From positions 1 through 30,154 of IMG/VR virus record IMGVR_UViG_3300021964_000327: a stretch of 30,154 nucleotides of DNA. One strand, given 5' to 3'. A model generated the notes under the pieces. It was given only the letters and a program-made list of their open reading frames with translations, was not told the DNA's origin and did no database searches. A program made the translations under genes and the position numbers. Shown here piece by piece: positions 636 to 30,154 of the stretch; the first letter of the stretch is position 1; every line of letters begins with the position of its first letter. Origin of the DNA: a virus.

Positions 636-818
636 ATGTCCACGAAGCCAACCAAGTACCGCATTGAAGTGAGCACCGACCACCAGAAGGAGCTGCGGAT
701 GGCGGCTGCCCTCGCCGGCCTCTCGGTGCCCGAGTATGTCGAGGTCGTTCTGCGGCCGAAGGTGCGCGCCGACCTCCAGGGCCGGATGGTTGCCCAGGGC
801 CTCACCGCCAACAAGTAG
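636..818 (+). CDS. Small ribbon-helix-helix-like protein (60 aa)
   Basis: The ATG at 636 lies one base after the previous stop and is preceded by GGAGA at a suitable distance. The fold pattern by eye is a short strand (KYRIEVS, residues 7-13), a helix (about 14-28), a turn at GLS and a second helix starting SVPEYVEVVL. That is the strand-helix-helix layout of MetJ/Arc-type DNA-binding proteins. Such proteins dimerise and bind operators through the paired strands. If real, it is the only obvious candidate transcriptional regulator in the genome, and the repeats at 3984-4100 or 29311-29345 would be candidate targets. The family assignment is a pattern judgement; a non-DNA-binding small protein is possible. 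Confidence 0.55.
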   Translation: MSTKPTKYRIEVSTDHQKELRMAAALAGLSVPEYVEVVLRPKVRADLQGRMVAQGLTANK

Positions 819-826
819 GGGACACC

Positions 827-3076
827 ATGGACGCGCAGACGTTGCGGGTATGGCCGACGCCGCCCGAAGAGCACATCTATGTTCGCCAGACCCTGCGGGG
901 CGGTGATTACATCTCGACGGGGCAGTTCCCTCGGCGTGCCATCGGCCGCAACGGCGCGGGGCGCACGGTCGACAACTGCACGGCGGTCACCTCGTTGTTC
1001 TTCGACGTTGACCTGCTCACCCTCGCCGACGCTGCCCGCCAGGCCGCAGGCAAGGTGCTCGAGGTGCGCAGCGCAGACCGCAAGGCTCACCTCTACAAGG
1101 AGCGCCCCGAGGTCGTGCACCGGCTCAAGGAGCTCCTCTACCAAGACATCGTGCCGTGCATCGAGACGGCCGTGGGTCTGCCCGCCTCCCTCGTCATCGA
1201 CTCGGGCTGGGGGTTCCACCTGCACTACGCACTCGCTCCCGACGTGGGCGACCGCAAGCTCTACCTGCAGCAGATTGCCGGGGCGCTCATCGCCGAAGCG
1301 AACCGCCTGGCGGCCGAGGTGGCCCTCGGCTACTCGCCGGCCCTGCAGCTCCCTGCGGCCTTCGATGCCACGCACGACGTGGGCGCAAGGCTCGCCCGAG
1401 AGCCCGGCAGCACGAACACGAAGGCACCGGGCAACCCTCGGCCCGTTGTCATCGTGGCGGCCTCTGACACCGTGCTCGACCATCGCAAGCTCGAGCAGTT
1501 GCGCGGGGCCTACTTTAAGCCGGGCGTGCTGCCCGAGCAGCTCCTCGAGGAGCCGAGCGTGCCGACCGTCGCCCGCCCTCGGCAGCAGGCCGCAGAGGAT
1601 GTCGACTTCCGCACCATGCGCCTCTCCGACGGCCGCACCTGGCAGACCGTGGTCGAGGCCCTGGCGCCTGGGGAGCGCACCCGCGTCGTCTGCCCCTTCG
1701 GGGGCACGAGTGTCGGCTCTGGCTTCTTCCACGTCGAGAGCGATGGACGTGCGCGCTACCACTCCGGCCCGCAGGCGAAGACGTACTGGAACACCTACCA
1801 GCCGCCGCAGCGCTCGGGGCGTGCCCAGCTCATCCGCAGCATCGACCGCCAGGGCCGAGCAGGCCTGCCCCTCAACACGGCCGCCAACCTGCTCACCATG
1901 CTCGAGAACGACGACGCCTTCGACCTCTGGTATGACGGGTTCGCCGAGCTCGAGATGGACGGCGCGCAGCCGCTCAACGATGTGACCTGGGTGCGCGTGC
2001 TGCAGCACATGAACACGGCCTACGACTGGCACTGGCGGCCCGGGCGTGAGCTTGTCTGGTCCACCATCGAGCAGGTGTGCAAGGACCGCACGCGCAACCC
2101 CGTGCGCGACTACCTCAAGGGCCTCTCGTGGGACGGCGTGCCCCGCTGCGACCGCTGGCTCATCGACACCTTCGGGGTGCCCGACACCGACATCCACAGG
2201 CTCTACGGGCTGCGCTGGTGCATCGGCCTCGTGGCGCGCGTCATGGAGCCCGGGTGCAAGCTCGACACGATGCTCGTGCTCACCGGCCCGCAGGGTGCCG
2301 GCAAGTCAACCGCCTTCCGCAAGTGGTCGACGGTGCCGGGCGTGGGCGAGCTGTTCTCCGACACCCGCTTCAACCTGCGCGACAAGGATGCCTACCTGCA
2401 GATTTACGCGGCGTGGGTCTTTGAGGATGCCGAGCTCTCGGGGTACAACGCTGCCGACAAGGAGGCGCGCAAAGGCTTCCTCTCCTCGAGCACCGACCGC
2501 TTCCGCCCTCCCTTCGGCCGCAAGATTCGCACCTACAAGCGGCACACCATCATCGTCGGCACCACGAACGAGACCGACATCTTGCGCGATGCCACGGGCG
2601 ACCGGCGGTACTGGGTGGTCGAGCTGCCGCAGAACACCAGCGCAGACCTCGAGTGGCTCGAGACGCACCGGGCCGACATGCTTGCCGAGGCGGTCTACCG
2701 CTACGAACAGGGAGAGGCCTGGTGGTTGACCCGCGAAGAGGAGGGCCTGCGGGAGAACAACAACCGCACCTTTCGCTACGTCGACTTCTACACCGAATGC
2801 GCCGAGCTTGTGTACATGGCGAACGGCGGGGGCACCTCGTGCCGCATCACCGCCTCGCAGTTCGGCCGCGCCATCGACGAGCGCATCGACGTGCAGCGGC
2901 AAGGCCTGCACCTCTCGCGTGCCCTCAACCGCGCCGGCTTCGTCAAGCAGGTGTCACGAGGCCGCACCTACTACTTCAAGGACACCCTCAACGCTCACGA
3001 CCACGACGGCCTCGAGGCCATCGAGAACCACAGCCGCACCCTCTACCTCGCGGCCAACAACCCGGAGACGGCATGA
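827..3076 (+). CDS. AEP primase / VirE-type superfamily 3-like helicase fusion
   Basis: A 749-aa protein with two recognisable parts. The N-terminal part has archaeo-eukaryotic primase motifs: the metal-binding D60-V-D62 in FFDVD, the SGWGFHLHY motif at 126-134, and REPGSTNTK at 191-199, which corresponds to the third AEP motif. The C-terminal part matches the virulence-associated E (VirE, PF05272) ATPase. It has a conserved NPVRDYL..L.WDG.PR lead-in, Walker A GPQGAGKST at 487-495, Walker B WVFED at 530-534, sensor GTTN at 578-581 and a GDRRYW arginine motif at 591-596. It would prime and unwind phage DNA at the origin. The ATG follows AGGGGA closely. The stop overlaps the ERF start. No phage polymerase is encoded, so this enzyme presumably hands over to the host replisome. 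Confidence 0.92.
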   Translation: MDAQTLRVWPTPPEEHIYVRQTLRGGDYISTGQFPRRAIGRNGAGRTVDNCTAVTSLFFDVDLLTLADAARQAAGKVLEVRSADRKAHLYKERPEVVHRLKELLYQDIVPCIETAVGLPASLVIDSGWGFHLHYALAPDVGDRKLYLQQIAGALIAEANRLAAEVALGYSPALQLPAAFDATHDVGARLAREPGSTNTKAPGNPRPVVIVAASDTVLDHRKLEQLRGAYFKPGVLPEQLLEEPSVPTVARPRQQAAEDVDFRTMRLSDGRTWQTVVEALAPGERTRVVCPFGGTSVGSGFFHVESDGRARYHSGPQAKTYWNTYQPPQRSGRAQLIRSIDRQGRAGLPLNTAANLLTMLENDDAFDLWYDGFAELEMDGAQPLNDVTWVRVLQHMNTAYDWHWRPGRELVWSTIEQVCKDRTRNPVRDYLKGLSWDGVPRCDRWLIDTFGVPDTDIHRLYGLRWCIGLVARVMEPGCKLDTMLVLTGPQGAGKSTAFRKWSTVPGVGELFSDTRFNLRDKDAYLQIYAAWVFEDAELSGYNAADKEARKGFLSSSTDRFRPPFGRKIRTYKRHTIIVGTTNETDILRDATGDRRYWVVELPQNTSADLEWLETHRADMLAEAVYRYEQGEAWWLTREEEGLRENNNRTFRYVDFYTECAELVYMANGGGTSCRITASQFGRAIDERIDVQRQGLHLSRALNRAGFVKQVSRGRTYYFKDTLNAHDHDGLEAIENHSRTLYLAANNPETA

Positions 3077-3729
3077 ACCACGAACTCTTCACCACCTCGG
3101 AGGAGGTCGCAGGCCTCTTCGCTGCCCTCGCCAAGGCACAAGGCTCGATGGGGCCGGCGCTCAAGGACAGCAAGAACCCGCACTTCCGCAGCAGCTACGC
3201 GAGCCTCGCGGCAATCCTCGAGGCCATCCTGCCCCACTTCAACGCGAACGGCCTGGCGCTCACGCAGCACCCGGGCTTCGGCGACGGCGTGGTCACCCTC
3301 ACCACACTCATCTCGCACTCGTCGGGGCAGTGGATGAGCAGCACGGTCTCGACGCCCCTGGCGCGCAAGCAAGACGCCCAGGCGGTCGGCTCGGCCATCA
3401 CCTACCTTCGCCGCTACGCTGCCCAGAGCATCGCAGGCTTGCCCGTCGAAGACGACGACGGAAACCGTGCGAGCGCTCGCTCTCCTCGGCCGTCTTCGGT
3501 CGTCCCTACGCAGCCGAAGCCCCTCACCGCTGCCGAGCTGGGCATCCGCCTCGAGGGCCTCGACCTCACCCTGCGCGACATGGTCACCTACTGCGAGGAG
3601 AACGGGAAGCCCGTGCCGCAGAACATGACGGCCGCCCGTCAGCAGCAGATGCTCTCGTGGCTCGCCGGTGCCGGTGCTGCCCAGGTGCGCGCCTGGTTCG
3701 CTGCGCAGGAGATGGGAGGTGAGGAATGA
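3073..3729 (+). CDS. erf: ERF-family single-strand DNA annealing protein
   Basis: This 218-aa protein matches the ERF family (PF04404), recombinases of the P22 Erf type that anneal complementary single strands. Diagnostic stretches are LKDSKNPHFRSSYASLAAIL near residues 30-50, the GLALTQHP segment, HSSGQW near 90, QAVGSAITYLRRYA near 118-131 and the acidic VEDDDGN close to 140. A Pro/Ser-rich linker then leads into a helical C-terminal part, as usual in the family. The ATG overlaps the primase-helicase stop. Together with the exonuclease at 4592-5395 and SSB it makes a complete two-component recombination system, useful for circularising terminally redundant DNA and for concatemer formation. 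Confidence 0.95.
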   Translation: MNHELFTTSEEVAGLFAALAKAQGSMGPALKDSKNPHFRSSYASLAAILEAILPHFNANGLALTQHPGFGDGVVTLTTLISHSSGQWMSSTVSTPLARKQDAQAVGSAITYLRRYAAQSIAGLPVEDDDGNRASARSPRPSSVVPTQPKPLTAAELGIRLEGLDLTLRDMVTYCEENGKPVPQNMTAARQQQMLSWLAGAGAAQVRAWFAAQEMGGEE

Positions 3730-3983
3730 GCGCGCTCATCGGCTGCATGGTTACCGCCTGCTTCCGCAGCAGAAACAACCCGTACCAAATCGACCAGGGG
3801 GCCGCGAAGGTCGGCCGCGTGGTGGCCTGCCAGCTCGACACGAAGGGGCAGTCCAACGGGTCGCGCTGCGACGACTTTGGGCCGTCGTTCCGGGTGCTGG
3901 TCTTCTGCGAAGACGGTGAGCTGCGCGAGGCCTGGGCGCACGATTGCCTCCCGCTGCCCGGCGAGTTTGTGCTCGATGTGTAG
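3726..3983 (+). CDS. Hypothetical protein (85 aa)
   Basis: The ATG overlaps the erf stop (ATGA at 3726-3729), so it is coupled to recombination-gene translation. The 85-aa product has several Cys residues and looks strand-rich, with a short hydrophobic start (MSALIGCMVTACF) too short for a confident membrane anchor. I do not recognise a family. It ends just before the repeat-rich gap at 3984-4100. A role in replication or recombination is suggested only by position. Confidence 0.7.
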   Translation: MSALIGCMVTACFRSRNNPYQIDQGAAKVGRVVACQLDTKGQSNGSRCDDFGPSFRVLVFCEDGELREAWAHDCLPLPGEFVLDV

Positions 3984-4026
3984 CGGTACACCGTTTTAAG
4001 ATTTCGGTGTATTTGGGTGTACCGGC
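3984..4026. repeat. AT-richer patch with inverted repeat CGGTACACCG / GGTGTACCGG
   Basis: Directly after the 85-aa gene lies CGGTACACCG (3984-3993). The reverse-complement element GGTGTACCGG occurs at 4016-4025, and a partial copy CGGTGTA at 4005-4011. The spacer (TTTTAAGATTT and ATTT) is conspicuously AT-rich for this genome. Together with the adjacent direct repeats this looks like a protein-binding site, either an internal promoter/operator or part of a replication origin. The role is inferred. Confidence 0.5.
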
Positions 4027-4049
4027 ACTGTGCGGGCATTCTCAGCGAG

Positions 4050-4100
4050 TGTCCCACACTGTCCCACAAGTTGTCCCACACTGTCCCACAAGGTGTCCCC
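4050..4100. repeat. Iteron-like array of TGTCCCACA direct repeats
   Basis: TGTCCCACA occurs at 4050-4058, 4060-4068, 4072-4080 and 4082-4090, with a fifth, truncated TGTCCCC at 4094-4100. Start-to-start spacing is 10, 12, 10 and 12 bases, so the higher-order unit is an almost perfect 22-bp repeat, and sites fall on about the same face of the helix. It lies inside the replication operon, immediately upstream of the RuvC-like gene. Such an arrangement is typical of iterons or of a cooperative operator. It could be read through as protein sequence in frame with the downstream gene, but the repetitive translation argues against that. Confidence 0.65.
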
Positions 4101-4595
4101 TTGACTATTCTCATCGGCATTGACCCCGGCCCCACCACCTCGGGGCTCGTGGTCTACCAGCTCGAGGCCGACGGCTCGGGCCGTGTCATCCGGTCGCAGA
4201 AGGACGCAACCCTCGGCGACCTGCGGGGCGTGCTCGACCTCGTGCAAGGGGCCGAGGTGGTCTTCGAGCGCACGCAGGCCGGGCCGCCCTCGACCTCAGT
4301 GGTCAAGACGACCGAGGTCGTGGGGCGCCTCATGGAGGCCTGTGAGGCCCGCAGGCTGCCCTGGACGGCCTACTACCGGCGCGAGGTCTTGCAGCTCCTC
4401 GGCTGCGCTCGCAAGGGCAACAAAGACGCCCTCGTGCGCGCTGCGTGCATCGAGCTCCATGGCGGACACAAACAGGCCGCCATCGGCAAGAAGGCAAGCC
4501 CTGGGCCGTTGTACGGCGTATCTTCTCATGCGTGGCAGGCTCTCGGGGTCGTCTGCGCGCATCTTCTCACTCGACCCTCGGAGACGGCACAATGA
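4101..4595 (+). CDS. RuvC-like Holliday junction resolvase / RNase H-fold nuclease
   Basis: Read from the TTG at 4101 the protein is 164 aa and starts with the core strand TILIGIDPGPTTSGLVVY, the RuvC first-motif with catalytic Asp at residue 8. A second acidic residue lies in VVFERTQ (E56), and a KDALVRAA helix (108-115) is followed by a C-terminal SSHAWQALGV segment (141-150). RuvC-type enzymes cut branched DNA, here probably before packaging or during recombination. The frame is open back to 4017, but that part is the direct-repeat array; the TTG has AAGGTG six bases upstream and puts the first strand at the N-terminus, so it is preferred. The usual C-terminal Asp is Gln in HAWQAL, so the fourth acidic position is uncertain. 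The stop overlaps the exonuclease start. Confidence 0.8.
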   Translation: MTILIGIDPGPTTSGLVVYQLEADGSGRVIRSQKDATLGDLRGVLDLVQGAEVVFERTQAGPPSTSVVKTTEVVGRLMEACEARRLPWTAYYRREVLQLLGCARKGNKDALVRAACIELHGGHKQAAIGKKASPGPLYGVSSHAWQALGVVCAHLLTRPSETAQ

Positions 4596-5395
4596 ACGAC
4601 GAACGAGACTACCGGGCAGCGCCCGGGGTGAACTACTCCAACCTGAAGCACATGCGGAAGAGCGCTGCTCACTACCGGCAGAACCTCCTCGCACCTCCCA
4701 AGGACAACCCGGCGTGGGCACGTGGGCGGCTCATCCACTGCCTCACCCTCGAGCCCTTCTCCTTTGACGACGACTTCTTCGTCTACGAAGGCCGACGGGA
4801 TAAGCGCACCAAGGCCTACCAGGCTGCCCTCGAGGAGGCTGCGGGCCGCGACATCGTTACCCCTGTCGAGCACGAGCTCGCCCTCGAGGTGGCGAAGGCG
4901 GCGACCGCACACCCGACGCTTGCCGCCATGCTGGCGCAGGATGACGCCCAGGTCGAGCGCCCGCTCTTCTGGGAGGAGGCACCCGTCGGCACCTGCAAGG
5001 GCAAGCCCGACGTGTACGTGGTCACGAGCGACAAGCACATCCTGCTCGACCTCAAGACCTTCCCCACCACCGACGAGCACACGGTCTCCCGGGCAGCTGC
5101 CCTGGGCGGGTGGCACCTGCAGGTCGCCCACTACCTGGCGGGCCTCGAGGCAACCTACGGCAAGCCGCAGAGCGTTGAAGCGCACCTGCTCGTTGCCGAG
5201 GTCGAGGCACCCTTCGACGTGCGCTGCTTCACCTGGGGCGAGGCGAGCATCGAGGCCGCAAAGGTCGAGCGTGCAGACCTGCTCGCCCAGCTCGCCGACT
5301 GCCTCGAGACCGACAAGTGGCCCGGGCGTCCTGCCTTCGGCACCCTCGACCTGCCCGCCTGGTACCTCAACAAGCACATCCCCTCGGAGTTTTGA
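4592..5395 (+). CDS. PD-(D/E)XK exonuclease, RecE/YqaJ-like
   Basis: This 267-aa protein opens with MNDERDYRAAPGVNYS, a typical lead of phage exonucleases in the DUF3799/RecE-like PD-(D/E)XK group. The fold signature is clear: GRLIHCLTLEP near 45-55, an acidic residue in QVERPLFW (E122), GKPDVYV with D140, then ILLDLKT with D153 and K155, and a QVAHY helix motif at 177-181. Enzymes of this kind resect double-stranded ends 5' to 3' and deliver the strand to an annealase; here the partner is the ERF protein at 3073-3729. The ATG overlaps the RuvC-like stop (ATGA). Confidence 0.88.
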   Translation: MNDERDYRAAPGVNYSNLKHMRKSAAHYRQNLLAPPKDNPAWARGRLIHCLTLEPFSFDDDFFVYEGRRDKRTKAYQAALEEAAGRDIVTPVEHELALEVAKAATAHPTLAAMLAQDDAQVERPLFWEEAPVGTCKGKPDVYVVTSDKHILLDLKTFPTTDEHTVSRAAALGGWHLQVAHYLAGLEATYGKPQSVEAHLLVAEVEAPFDVRCFTWGEASIEAAKVERADLLAQLADCLETDKWPGRPAFGTLDLPAWYLNKHIPSEF

Positions 5396-27406: not shown

Positions 27407-28957
27407 TCAGAAGGGCAGGGAAGAGGAGCGCAAGCGGCGGGCGCGCGAGGCAGAGATGAGGTCGTCTATCCGGGTGCGGGAAGACTGGAGAGCCTGCGTG
27501 CGCCACGAGGGCGGCACGTCGCGCAGGCATCGGTAGGCGAGCGCCAGGGCGACCGCGCTGTCATCATACCCCCCGCGAGGTGCCTCGGGGGCAACCTTCC
27601 CAGCGGGCACGGTGAGCGCTCGCAGCTCGAGCCACGTCACCCGGTCGAGCACCTGCACGACCTGCATCGCCTCCCGCAGGGTGTCGAGGGCCTCGAGCTT
27701 GCTCTGCAGAGTGGTGACCCACGGCTTGCCCTTCGGCCCGCGCCACTGCTGCCGGTAGCCGCAGTGCTCCATCTCGAGCAGCAGGGCGTGCCCGTGGTTG
27801 TTGCTCTCGGCGAGCACGAGCGCCTGGTTGTAGCGGCTGGCGACCTGCACGACCCGATGCGCCCAGGCCGCAGGCGTCACCCGGTTGTTGCGTTCCATGT
27901 ACACCGGTTGCCGGGTGCTCACCGAGACGACGGCGAGGGCCGAGTAGTCACCGCCCACGCCCCCGCCCACGTCGACGCCCATGACGTAGCGGTCGTGGTT
28001 GTGCGGCCCTTCAATCTCCCTGCCCCCGTGGTCGCCCACGAGCTCGTGCGCGACGACGTGCATGGCCTGCAGGCTCGCGTCGTCAAACCACCCGCCCTCT
28101 CGCTGCAGGAAGCAGTCGTCGAGGGTGGCGGGGTACTCGCGCCGGAACTTGTGCGGGCCGAGGGTCTGCTCATACCTGCGCCGCCAGGCGAGCTGCCCGA
28201 GGGTGAGGTGGTGGGCCGCCTGCTGCTGCTTCTCCTCGGCGGTCGGCTCGAAGTCGTCGGGCACCGGGTCGGTGTACGTCGGGTGCTCGTGCCACCAGTG
28301 CGTGAGCACAAGCCACCCGTTCTCCGGTGCGCCGGCGATGAGGCGGGAGAAGGCGTCGCCCGGGTTGTTCGCGGTGCTCTCCACCATGAGCAGCCCGTCG
28401 CCGACGGCGCTGAGGGCCTGGGCGAGCAGCTCGTCTTGGTCGAGGGCGAAGGCAAACTCGGAGAGGAGAACGGCCTTGGGAGAGAAGGACCGCAGCCCGG
28501 TCGAGCTCCTCGAGGTGAAGGCCTTGAGCGTGGCGCCCGTGTCGGCGAGGCGAAGCTCGCCCTTCGCCCTCGTGTCGAGCTCGCGGCGCAGGATGGTGGG
28601 CGGGTCGTCCATCCACCTGCGGTTGTCGTCAAGGAGGGCCGTGGCGCTCTCTGCCCGAAGCGAGACGATGGCGAAGAGGGCGGCGTGCCGGGTGGCCGAC
28701 CACCTCTGGTGCAAGACCATCTTGCACGCGGTCGTCGCCGCGACCTGGCGCGCCTTCACCACGAGAATGCGGTTGTGCCCCGCCTCGACCGCGTCGAAGA
28801 TTTTCTGCTGCATCGGCAGGGCGTCGAAGGGGATGAGGGCGGCGCTGTCCTTGTCCTGCACGCGGTGCAGCCGAGCGAAGGCCGAGGGGCACCCCATGAG
28901 CTGCCCGACCTGGGGCACGAGCTGCGGGGGCACGGCCCCGGGTACAAAGGGCCTCAC
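27407..28957 (-). CDS. terL: Terminase large subunit
   Basis: A 516-aa packaging ATPase-nuclease. The ATPase part has a non-classical Walker A (VVKARQVAATT, residues 66-76), Walker B (VLLSEFAF, 163-170) and the coupling motif ESTANNPG (193-200). A YPATLDDCF..EGGWFD linker follows. The nuclease part has the three metal ligands in the expected order: D329 (VMGVDVGGG), E384 (VLAESNNHG) and D465/D466 (GGYDDSAVALA). The start is a GTG at 28957 that overlaps the stop of the upstream gene as GTGA. It cuts concatemers and drives DNA through the portal encoded next. Which end type it produces cannot be read from this. Confidence 0.95.
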   Translation of the reverse strand: MRPFVPGAVPPQLVPQVGQLMGCPSAFARLHRVQDKDSAALIPFDALPMQQKIFDAVEAGHNRILVVKARQVAATTACKMVLHQRWSATRHAALFAIVSLRAESATALLDDNRRWMDDPPTILRRELDTRAKGELRLADTGATLKAFTSRSSTGLRSFSPKAVLLSEFAFALDQDELLAQALSAVGDGLLMVESTANNPGDAFSRLIAGAPENGWLVLTHWWHEHPTYTDPVPDDFEPTAEEKQQQAAHHLTLGQLAWRRRYEQTLGPHKFRREYPATLDDCFLQREGGWFDDASLQAMHVVAHELVGDHGGREIEGPHNHDRYVMGVDVGGGVGGDYSALAVVSVSTRQPVYMERNNRVTPAAWAHRVVQVASRYNQALVLAESNNHGHALLLEMEHCGYRQQWRGPKGKPWVTTLQSKLEALDTLREAMQVVQVLDRVTWLELRALTVPAGKVAPEAPRGGYDDSAVALALAYRCLRDVPPSWRTQALQSSRTRIDDLISASRARRLRSSSLPF

Positions 28958-29202
28958 CGTTCGCCGATGAGCTGCAGCACGTTGCGCAGCTCCTCCACCT
29001 CGGGCGCCTCGAGGCTCGGGGCCTCGTAGTCTCGCGCCATGTCGACCACCCGCCAGGCGGTGTCGAGCTGGGCCTTGTTGGCCTTGGCACTGCCCCGCAG
29101 CACGCGCTCGATGCAGGTGAGGGCCTCGACGGCGAGAGAGGCGAGCTGGCGGTCAATCTGCTCGGGCGAGAGCAGGCGGTCTTCGGACGGTGGGGGGTTC
29201 AT
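28954..29202 (-). CDS. Candidate small terminase subunit (82 aa)
   Basis: The first gene of the leftward operon, an 82-aa helical protein (LSPEQIDRQLASLAVEALTC, ..RGSAKANKAQLDTAWRVVDM). Position directly before terL with a GTGA overlap and the resemblance of the EAL..IERVLR..KA..AQ..AA-like run to the oligomerisation helices of small terminases support that call. It lacks an obvious DNA-binding domain and is short for the family, so it may be a reduced version, with DNA binding elsewhere. AGGAGG precedes the ATG at a good distance. Confidence 0.5.
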   Translation of the reverse strand: MNPPPSEDRLLSPEQIDRQLASLAVEALTCIERVLRGSAKANKAQLDTAWRVVDMARDYEAPSLEAPEVEELRNVLQLIGER

Positions 29203-30046: not shown

Positions 30047-30154
30047 ACAACATTCACCAGACCATCTACCTCACCTACCACCACCGAGACCTCGAGACCT
30101 TCTGCGGCGAGATTGACGACCGCATGCAGGGCGGCGCCGGGTACGACCTGGTCG
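30043..30154 (+). CDS. Hypothetical protein, 5' part (gene crosses the contig junction)
   Basis: The GTG at 30043 overlaps the stop of the preceding membrane-protein gene and opens the frame that continues, after joining the circle, at bases 91-356. The first codons read MNNIHQTIYLTYHHRDLE. Compared with the left copy, this end has Leu for Pro and Tyr for His near residues 10 and 12, and Gly-Ala-Gly for Val-Asp-Glu near residues 31-33, while the frame stays intact. Confidence 0.75.
   Translation, partial: MNNIHQTIYLTYHHRDLETFCGEIDDRMQGGAGYDLV
30065..30154. repeat. Right copy of the 90-bp near-identical end repeat
   Basis: This is the partner of bases 1-90 (85 of 90 identical, no gaps). It ends at the contig end exactly as the left copy starts at the contig start, which is what an assembly of a circular or terminally redundant genome gives. 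Confidence 0.93.

Follow-up and report, generated by a model that had tools for sequence, protein, structure and literature searches.

The DNA analyzed here, called the window throughout, is a 30,154-nt stretch. Judged from its sequence, it is a complete, circularly permuted phage genome of ~30.06 kb, since the contig L030 runs from its right end across into its left end with 99.7 to 99.9% identity. The two ends overlap imperfectly over ~90 bases (1 to 90 and 30065 to 30154). The array of short direct repeats that concerns us lies within a run of replication and recombination genes in the order RHH-like protein, PriRep (VapE), ERF annealing protein, small open reading frame (ORF), array, RuvC-like protein, and DUF3799/ExoVIII-like protein (Table 1). 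GC skew has its minimum near 6.5 kb and its maximum near 29 kb, both at gene-strand switches. Because the skew follows gene orientation, the GC-skew check suggested in a preliminary description of this DNA was uninformative, and skew was dropped as an origin indicator.

Table 1. Features of the window discussed in the text
Feature	Coordinates	Strand	Remarks
Small RHH-like protein	636..818	+	Weak ParD match; conserved in the clade with and without array
PriRep	827..3076	+	AEP-type primase fold, N-terminal, plus VapE/SaPI-Rep helicase core
ERF-type ssDNA annealing protein	3079..3729	+	
Small ORF	3726..3983	+	Relative found in L017
Gap with inverted repeat, AT-rich patch, and array	3984..4100		117 nt
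Inverted repeat	3984..4024		Perfect, 9 bp; CGGTACACC (3984-3992) and GGTGTACCG (4016-4024)
Repeat array	4050..4099	+	Four exact TGTCCCACA plus a partial fifth copy (TGTCCC); spacing 10/12/10/12
RuvC-like Holliday junction resolvase	4101..4595	+	TTG start; phrog_1770, E 3.6e-10
DUF3799/exonuclease VIII-like PD-(D/E)XK nuclease	4592..5395	+	
Terminase large subunit (terL)	27407..28957	-	Terminase_6C, weak
TerS-like small ORF, upstream of terL	28954..29202	-	Assigned from position only

Domain matches identify the phage initiator as a fused primase and VapE/SaPI-Rep-type helicase, here termed PriRep, that is, an element-encoded initiator helicase of the Rep/Cch type that accompanies iteron origins of the SaPI/PICI/SCCmec kind. 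PriRep contains a VapE domain (E 3e-69) and aligns with the VapE-like chain of PDB 7PDS (PriRep1 with dsDNA; E 1.7e-42), and its N terminus is primase-polymerase-like, with a match to the S-2L PrimPol domain. The C-terminal region is predicted with low confidence to form a helix-helix-helix-strand-strand, winged helix-turn-helix (wHTH)-like fold; the AlphaFold model (mean pLDDT, 61.5) is weak in the helicase and the C terminus.

The preliminary description counted five repeat copies. Four are exact, starting at 4050, 4060, 4072, and 4082, and the fifth, at 4094, is reduced to its first bases. These starts confirmed the alternating 10/12 spacing noted earlier, and the nearly perfect 22-bp higher-order repeat was borne out by units 4050 to 4071 and 4072 to 4093, which differ at one base of 22. 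Identical 9-mers at 10- to 12-base spacing formed chains of up to four in the real window but of no more than two in 60 first-order Markov shuffles of it, and chance is excluded as the source of the array. Several short, phased direct repeats are also what iteron origins of the SaPI/PICI/SCCmec type contain. Comparison with annotated phages gave no matches beyond short chance ones, and a literature search for the array word returned only primers, ribosome-site tables, and unrelated text.

The genes of relatives overlap or abut at the place where the window has its 117-nt gap, which therefore looks like an insertion. As described previously, the array sits amid replication genes beside an inverted repeat and an AT-rich patch; the patch (3993 to 4014, about 23 nt) lies between the arms of the inverted repeat, and both are ~26 nt to the left of the array. 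The inverted-repeat region folded no better than its shuffles (z = -1.3). The preliminary description also placed the array directly before a TTG-started gene. This start of ruvC is plausible on sequence grounds, because the last unit of the array supplies an AAGG seven bases ahead of the TTG and because ruvC homologues begin at the same ILIGIDPGP point, without a repeat-coded extension. Homologues do not share the in-frame extension that would begin farther upstream, at GTG 4017, which indicates that the window array is non-coding and not, as had been considered in the preliminary description, a conserved N terminus of the RuvC-like protein.

To place the array in its lineage, we compared viral loci encoding a RuvC-like protein (13 loci) or a protein aligning with PriRep (48 loci; 49 with the window included). 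Three or more phased copies of TGTCCCACA at 10- to 12-base spacing were present in 10 of the 49 PriRep loci, again counting the window, and 25 permuted motifs gave no array in any of them. When phased arrays of any word were counted, PriRep loci showed just a slight excess (2.3 per 100 kb, versus 1.3 in other DNA), so that only the specific word counts as evidence. The arrays occupy four sites. In the window, the site is before ruvC. In L016/L017 (= L188/L187), the array lies in the linker of the ERF gene (copies at 0, 10, and 21), and in L018/L019 (= L189/L218), it is again in a linker, that of a 61-aa ORF located 0.94 kb upstream of PriRep (0, 10, and 22). In L009, L208, L209, L210, and L228, it is found between terS and terL, ~2 kb upstream of PriRep, with copies at 0, 10, 21 or 0, 11, 21; the order of the linkers thus swaps (10/11 versus 11/10) at a constant total of 21. 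The expectation that relatives carry the same array therefore held in part: the array recurs, but elsewhere in the genome, and most relatives lack it.

All arrays of the lineage share one orientation relative to the genome. In the L210-type phages this orientation is opposite to local transcription, which argues for a DNA element rather than an RNA one. Where the array falls within genes (L018/L019 and L016/L017), its copies are translated in different frames, suggesting that what is kept is the DNA word and not a peptide. Some homologues of the genes concerned are array-free (the 61-aa ORF in G027/G028; ERF linkers), which, together with the mixed frames, gives the arrays the look of insertions where constraint is weak. 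A neutral tandem repeat or a by-product of coding is another conceivable source, and GTCCCACA does code for VPQ/CPT/SH in proline-rich linkers. We regard this as highly improbable, since a 10/12 spacing does not keep the reading frame, copies within genes differ in frame, the array of the window is non-coding, and no arrays are obtained with permuted motifs; a coding repeat as such was rejected on the first two grounds.

A pair of close relatives illustrates how the array comes and goes. L228 and L206 are 87 to 89% identical over most of their length; the terS-terL interval of L228 carries the array (3693 to 3740), and exactly that piece is absent from L206 (3386 to 3420), with 4-bp direct repeats at the indel junction. 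The PriRep C termini of the two are nearly identical. Most relatives with a closely similar PriRep, C-terminal end included, are likewise array-free contigs, some of which are fragments, and the whole contigs of 26 relatives (25 array-free at the locus) contained no further array. The repeats are thus not kept wherever the initiator is kept. The RHH-like protein is equally present with or without the array, and a search for a DNA-binding protein or gene co-varying with it returned none that was convincing, the matches being mostly shadow ORFs. Because the PriRep C termini of L228 and L206 are alike and the RHH-like protein is independent of the array, the array cannot be an obligatory target of either protein across the clade, unless array-free phages use another sequence.

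These observations bear on the proposal of the preliminary description that the array is a cooperative operator. On this reading, a repressor or activator, for example the RHH-like protein, would bind the array and thereby regulate the part of the early operon that holds ruvC and the exonuclease gene. RHH proteins are known to bind short direct repeats. The 117-nt gap directly before ruvC, in an otherwise tight operon and with an inverted repeat alongside, would suit such a role, as would the position of the L009/L210-type array ~26 bp upstream of terL. However, a search for sigma-70-type signals found no promoter-like sequence or terminator within 3700 to 4400, the arrays of L016/L017 and L018/L019 lie inside genes, and the RHH protein is just as present in phages without the array. 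Upstream of ruvC, relatives do not have the array at the same position, and this movement weakens the operator proposal, which we now consider unlikely.

Arrays of the word TGTCCCA also occur outside the lineage. Three copies with 3- to 5-nt gaps were found in at least 119 stretches of IMG/VR, a count covering roughly half of that database, as inferred from the order of known matches. A full IMG/VR scan with the reversed word gave 40 stretches; since most of these are runs of DnaA boxes or repeats within coding sequence, the reversed word is an imperfect control. Bacterial chromosomes seldom carry the triple array, which was present in 4 of 398 genomes. Among the matches listed, 14 of 66 distinct viral neighborhoods outside the lineage had, within 6 kb, a primase-helicase of the two main families, and in 13 of these 14 the array was at most 500 bp from it (random mean, 4.5; maximum, 11). 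A Pfam and PHROGs census of neighbors among the same matches was led by AAA_25, VapE, DUF5906, and Prim-Pol, with terminase small subunits (phrog_57) as a smaller second class; the control set had few neighbors of this kind. Thus, the earlier description of an iteron-like element in a replication module stands: PriRep is SaPI-Rep-like, and arrays of the word adjoin such genes in unrelated phages. We followed one word through the databases, so that the privilege of TGTCCCA among phage iterons is a rough estimate. In L037, L060, L083, and L089, symmetric TGTCCCA...TGGGACA arrays with short palindromic centers lie beside or inside primase-helicase genes.

In other phages, the initiators encoded next to TGTCCCA arrays are unrelated at their C termini; hence either different proteins came to use one word or a common factor reads it. 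One account is that the array is gained recurrently, is read by a host factor or spread horizontally, and has no fixed role in the replication of the phage. Its sporadic presence, the clean indel flanked by 4-bp direct repeats, the low constraint of the insertion places, the occurrence of the same 7-mer next to unrelated initiators, and the lack of a co-varying phage gene are consistent with a non-essential array. In contrast, its confinement to ~5.5 kb around PriRep and the terminase, its single orientation, and its rarity in bacterial chromosomes argue against this account, and we think it, too, rather unlikely. A broader possibility, to which we give little credence, is that phages whose initiators are unrelated share TGTCCCA arrays as a recognition element that is acquired again and again, at any position but in a fixed orientation, and that a single factor, from phage or host, reads them all. 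The arrays would then be a transferable tag for replication or packaging and not origins specific to one initiator.

The terminase neighborhood raises a further alternative, that the array is a packaging-recognition site bound by the terminase small subunit. Short-site arrays near terS in some relatives can be likened to lambda cosB and pac sites; the window array is far from the terminase. This alternative is retained because in L009/L210/L228 the array occupies precisely the interval from terS to terL; several further TGTCCCA arrays are immediately next to terminase small subunits of phrog_57, and genome polarity is fixed. We nevertheless judge it very improbable, given that the terminase is kilobases from the array in the window and in L016-L019 and that close relatives with the same terS are array-free. 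In L268, L271, L274, L276, L280, L295, and L082, TGTCCCA occurs in both orientations at the start codon of the terminase small subunit; these TerS genes begin MTTMNQSQYAQ..., and that of L082 belongs to phrog_57.

Among known systems, the SaPI/PICI rep-ori arrangement resembles the window in its initiator, PriRep being homologous to the PriRep1/VapE-like helicase of 7PDS, and in having short direct repeats within the replication module. Phage P4 alpha, with ori and crr, likewise has a primase-helicase as its initiator and recognizes iterons at separate sites, although its repeat differs from that of the window. In known PICI origins, an AT-rich region is flanked by two iteron sets just 3' of rep (PMC6092414). 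The window, in contrast, has a single set, which follows the PriRep stop at a distance of 974 bp on the 3' side, with its AT-rich patch on one side only, and the phage array moves and is often absent. Because the position and the two-set layout differ and the repeats are not conserved along with the initiator, we do not claim membership of the SaPI/PICI origin class. The putative SCCmec Cch2 origin is similar in combining a few short direct repeats with an initiator helicase, and in L003, TGTCCCACA arrays adjoin an initiator that carries HTH_56, the HTH domain of Cch. However, the Cch2 site is conserved, lies directly 3' of cch2, and has demonstrated binding (PMC7581432), features that the window array does not share.

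Taking these comparisons together, we tentatively favor, at somewhat less than even confidence, an iteron-like site whose helically phased repeats are bound by a sequence-specific DNA-binding protein and which has a role in replication. Such a site best accounts for the phasing, the DNA-level conservation, the polarity, and the neighborhood of the array. What we infer here is that a protein binds, which protein it is, and that replication is affected. The C-terminal domains of SaPI Rep and SCCmec Cch2 helicases recognize short direct-repeat iterons (PMC7581432), and by this analogy PriRep would be the first suspect: several copies may line up along one face of the DNA, each bound through its wHTH-like C-terminal end, the total phasing of 21 to 22 bp corresponding to two helix turns. 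A partner such as the RHH-like protein may bind instead. The array could then serve as an accessory or alternative site of initiation or control. On the best reading of the sequence comparisons, it was gained by insertion and is tied to replication. Of the candidate replication origin proposed in the preliminary description, the iteron-like element thus survives, but an obligatory origin is probably not what the array represents, since relatives with the same initiator are array-free and the array moves. If the array is the binding site of the initiator, an iteron-type element hops around the replication region and is gained and lost between close relatives, and the turnover of origins or control sites in PriRep-helicase phages would be directly testable. 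A conserved-looking repeat in one genome is not enough to call an origin.

Repeats of other words, such as array-free phages might use instead, were also observed. In L189 (the same phage as L018), about eight AGTGCAGGGT 10-mers in both orientations occupy a divergent late/early intergenic region (3440 to 3720), and related repeats of a similar word occur in L201 and L214; the L189 cluster is a good rival origin or operator. L206 and L228 contain ACCCGTCCCT-like repeats. Different phased arrays were seen in three PriRep relatives, with 11-bp CACCAGCTG units in L191 (3232 to 3320), 17-bp CTATAGCGACCCGCTTG units in L217 (823 to 905), and GTGGCCGAAT units in L029 (2710 to 2750). The same 10/12 alternation recurs with a different word, TCCGCCAGC, in seven copies in L169 (9967 to 10045).
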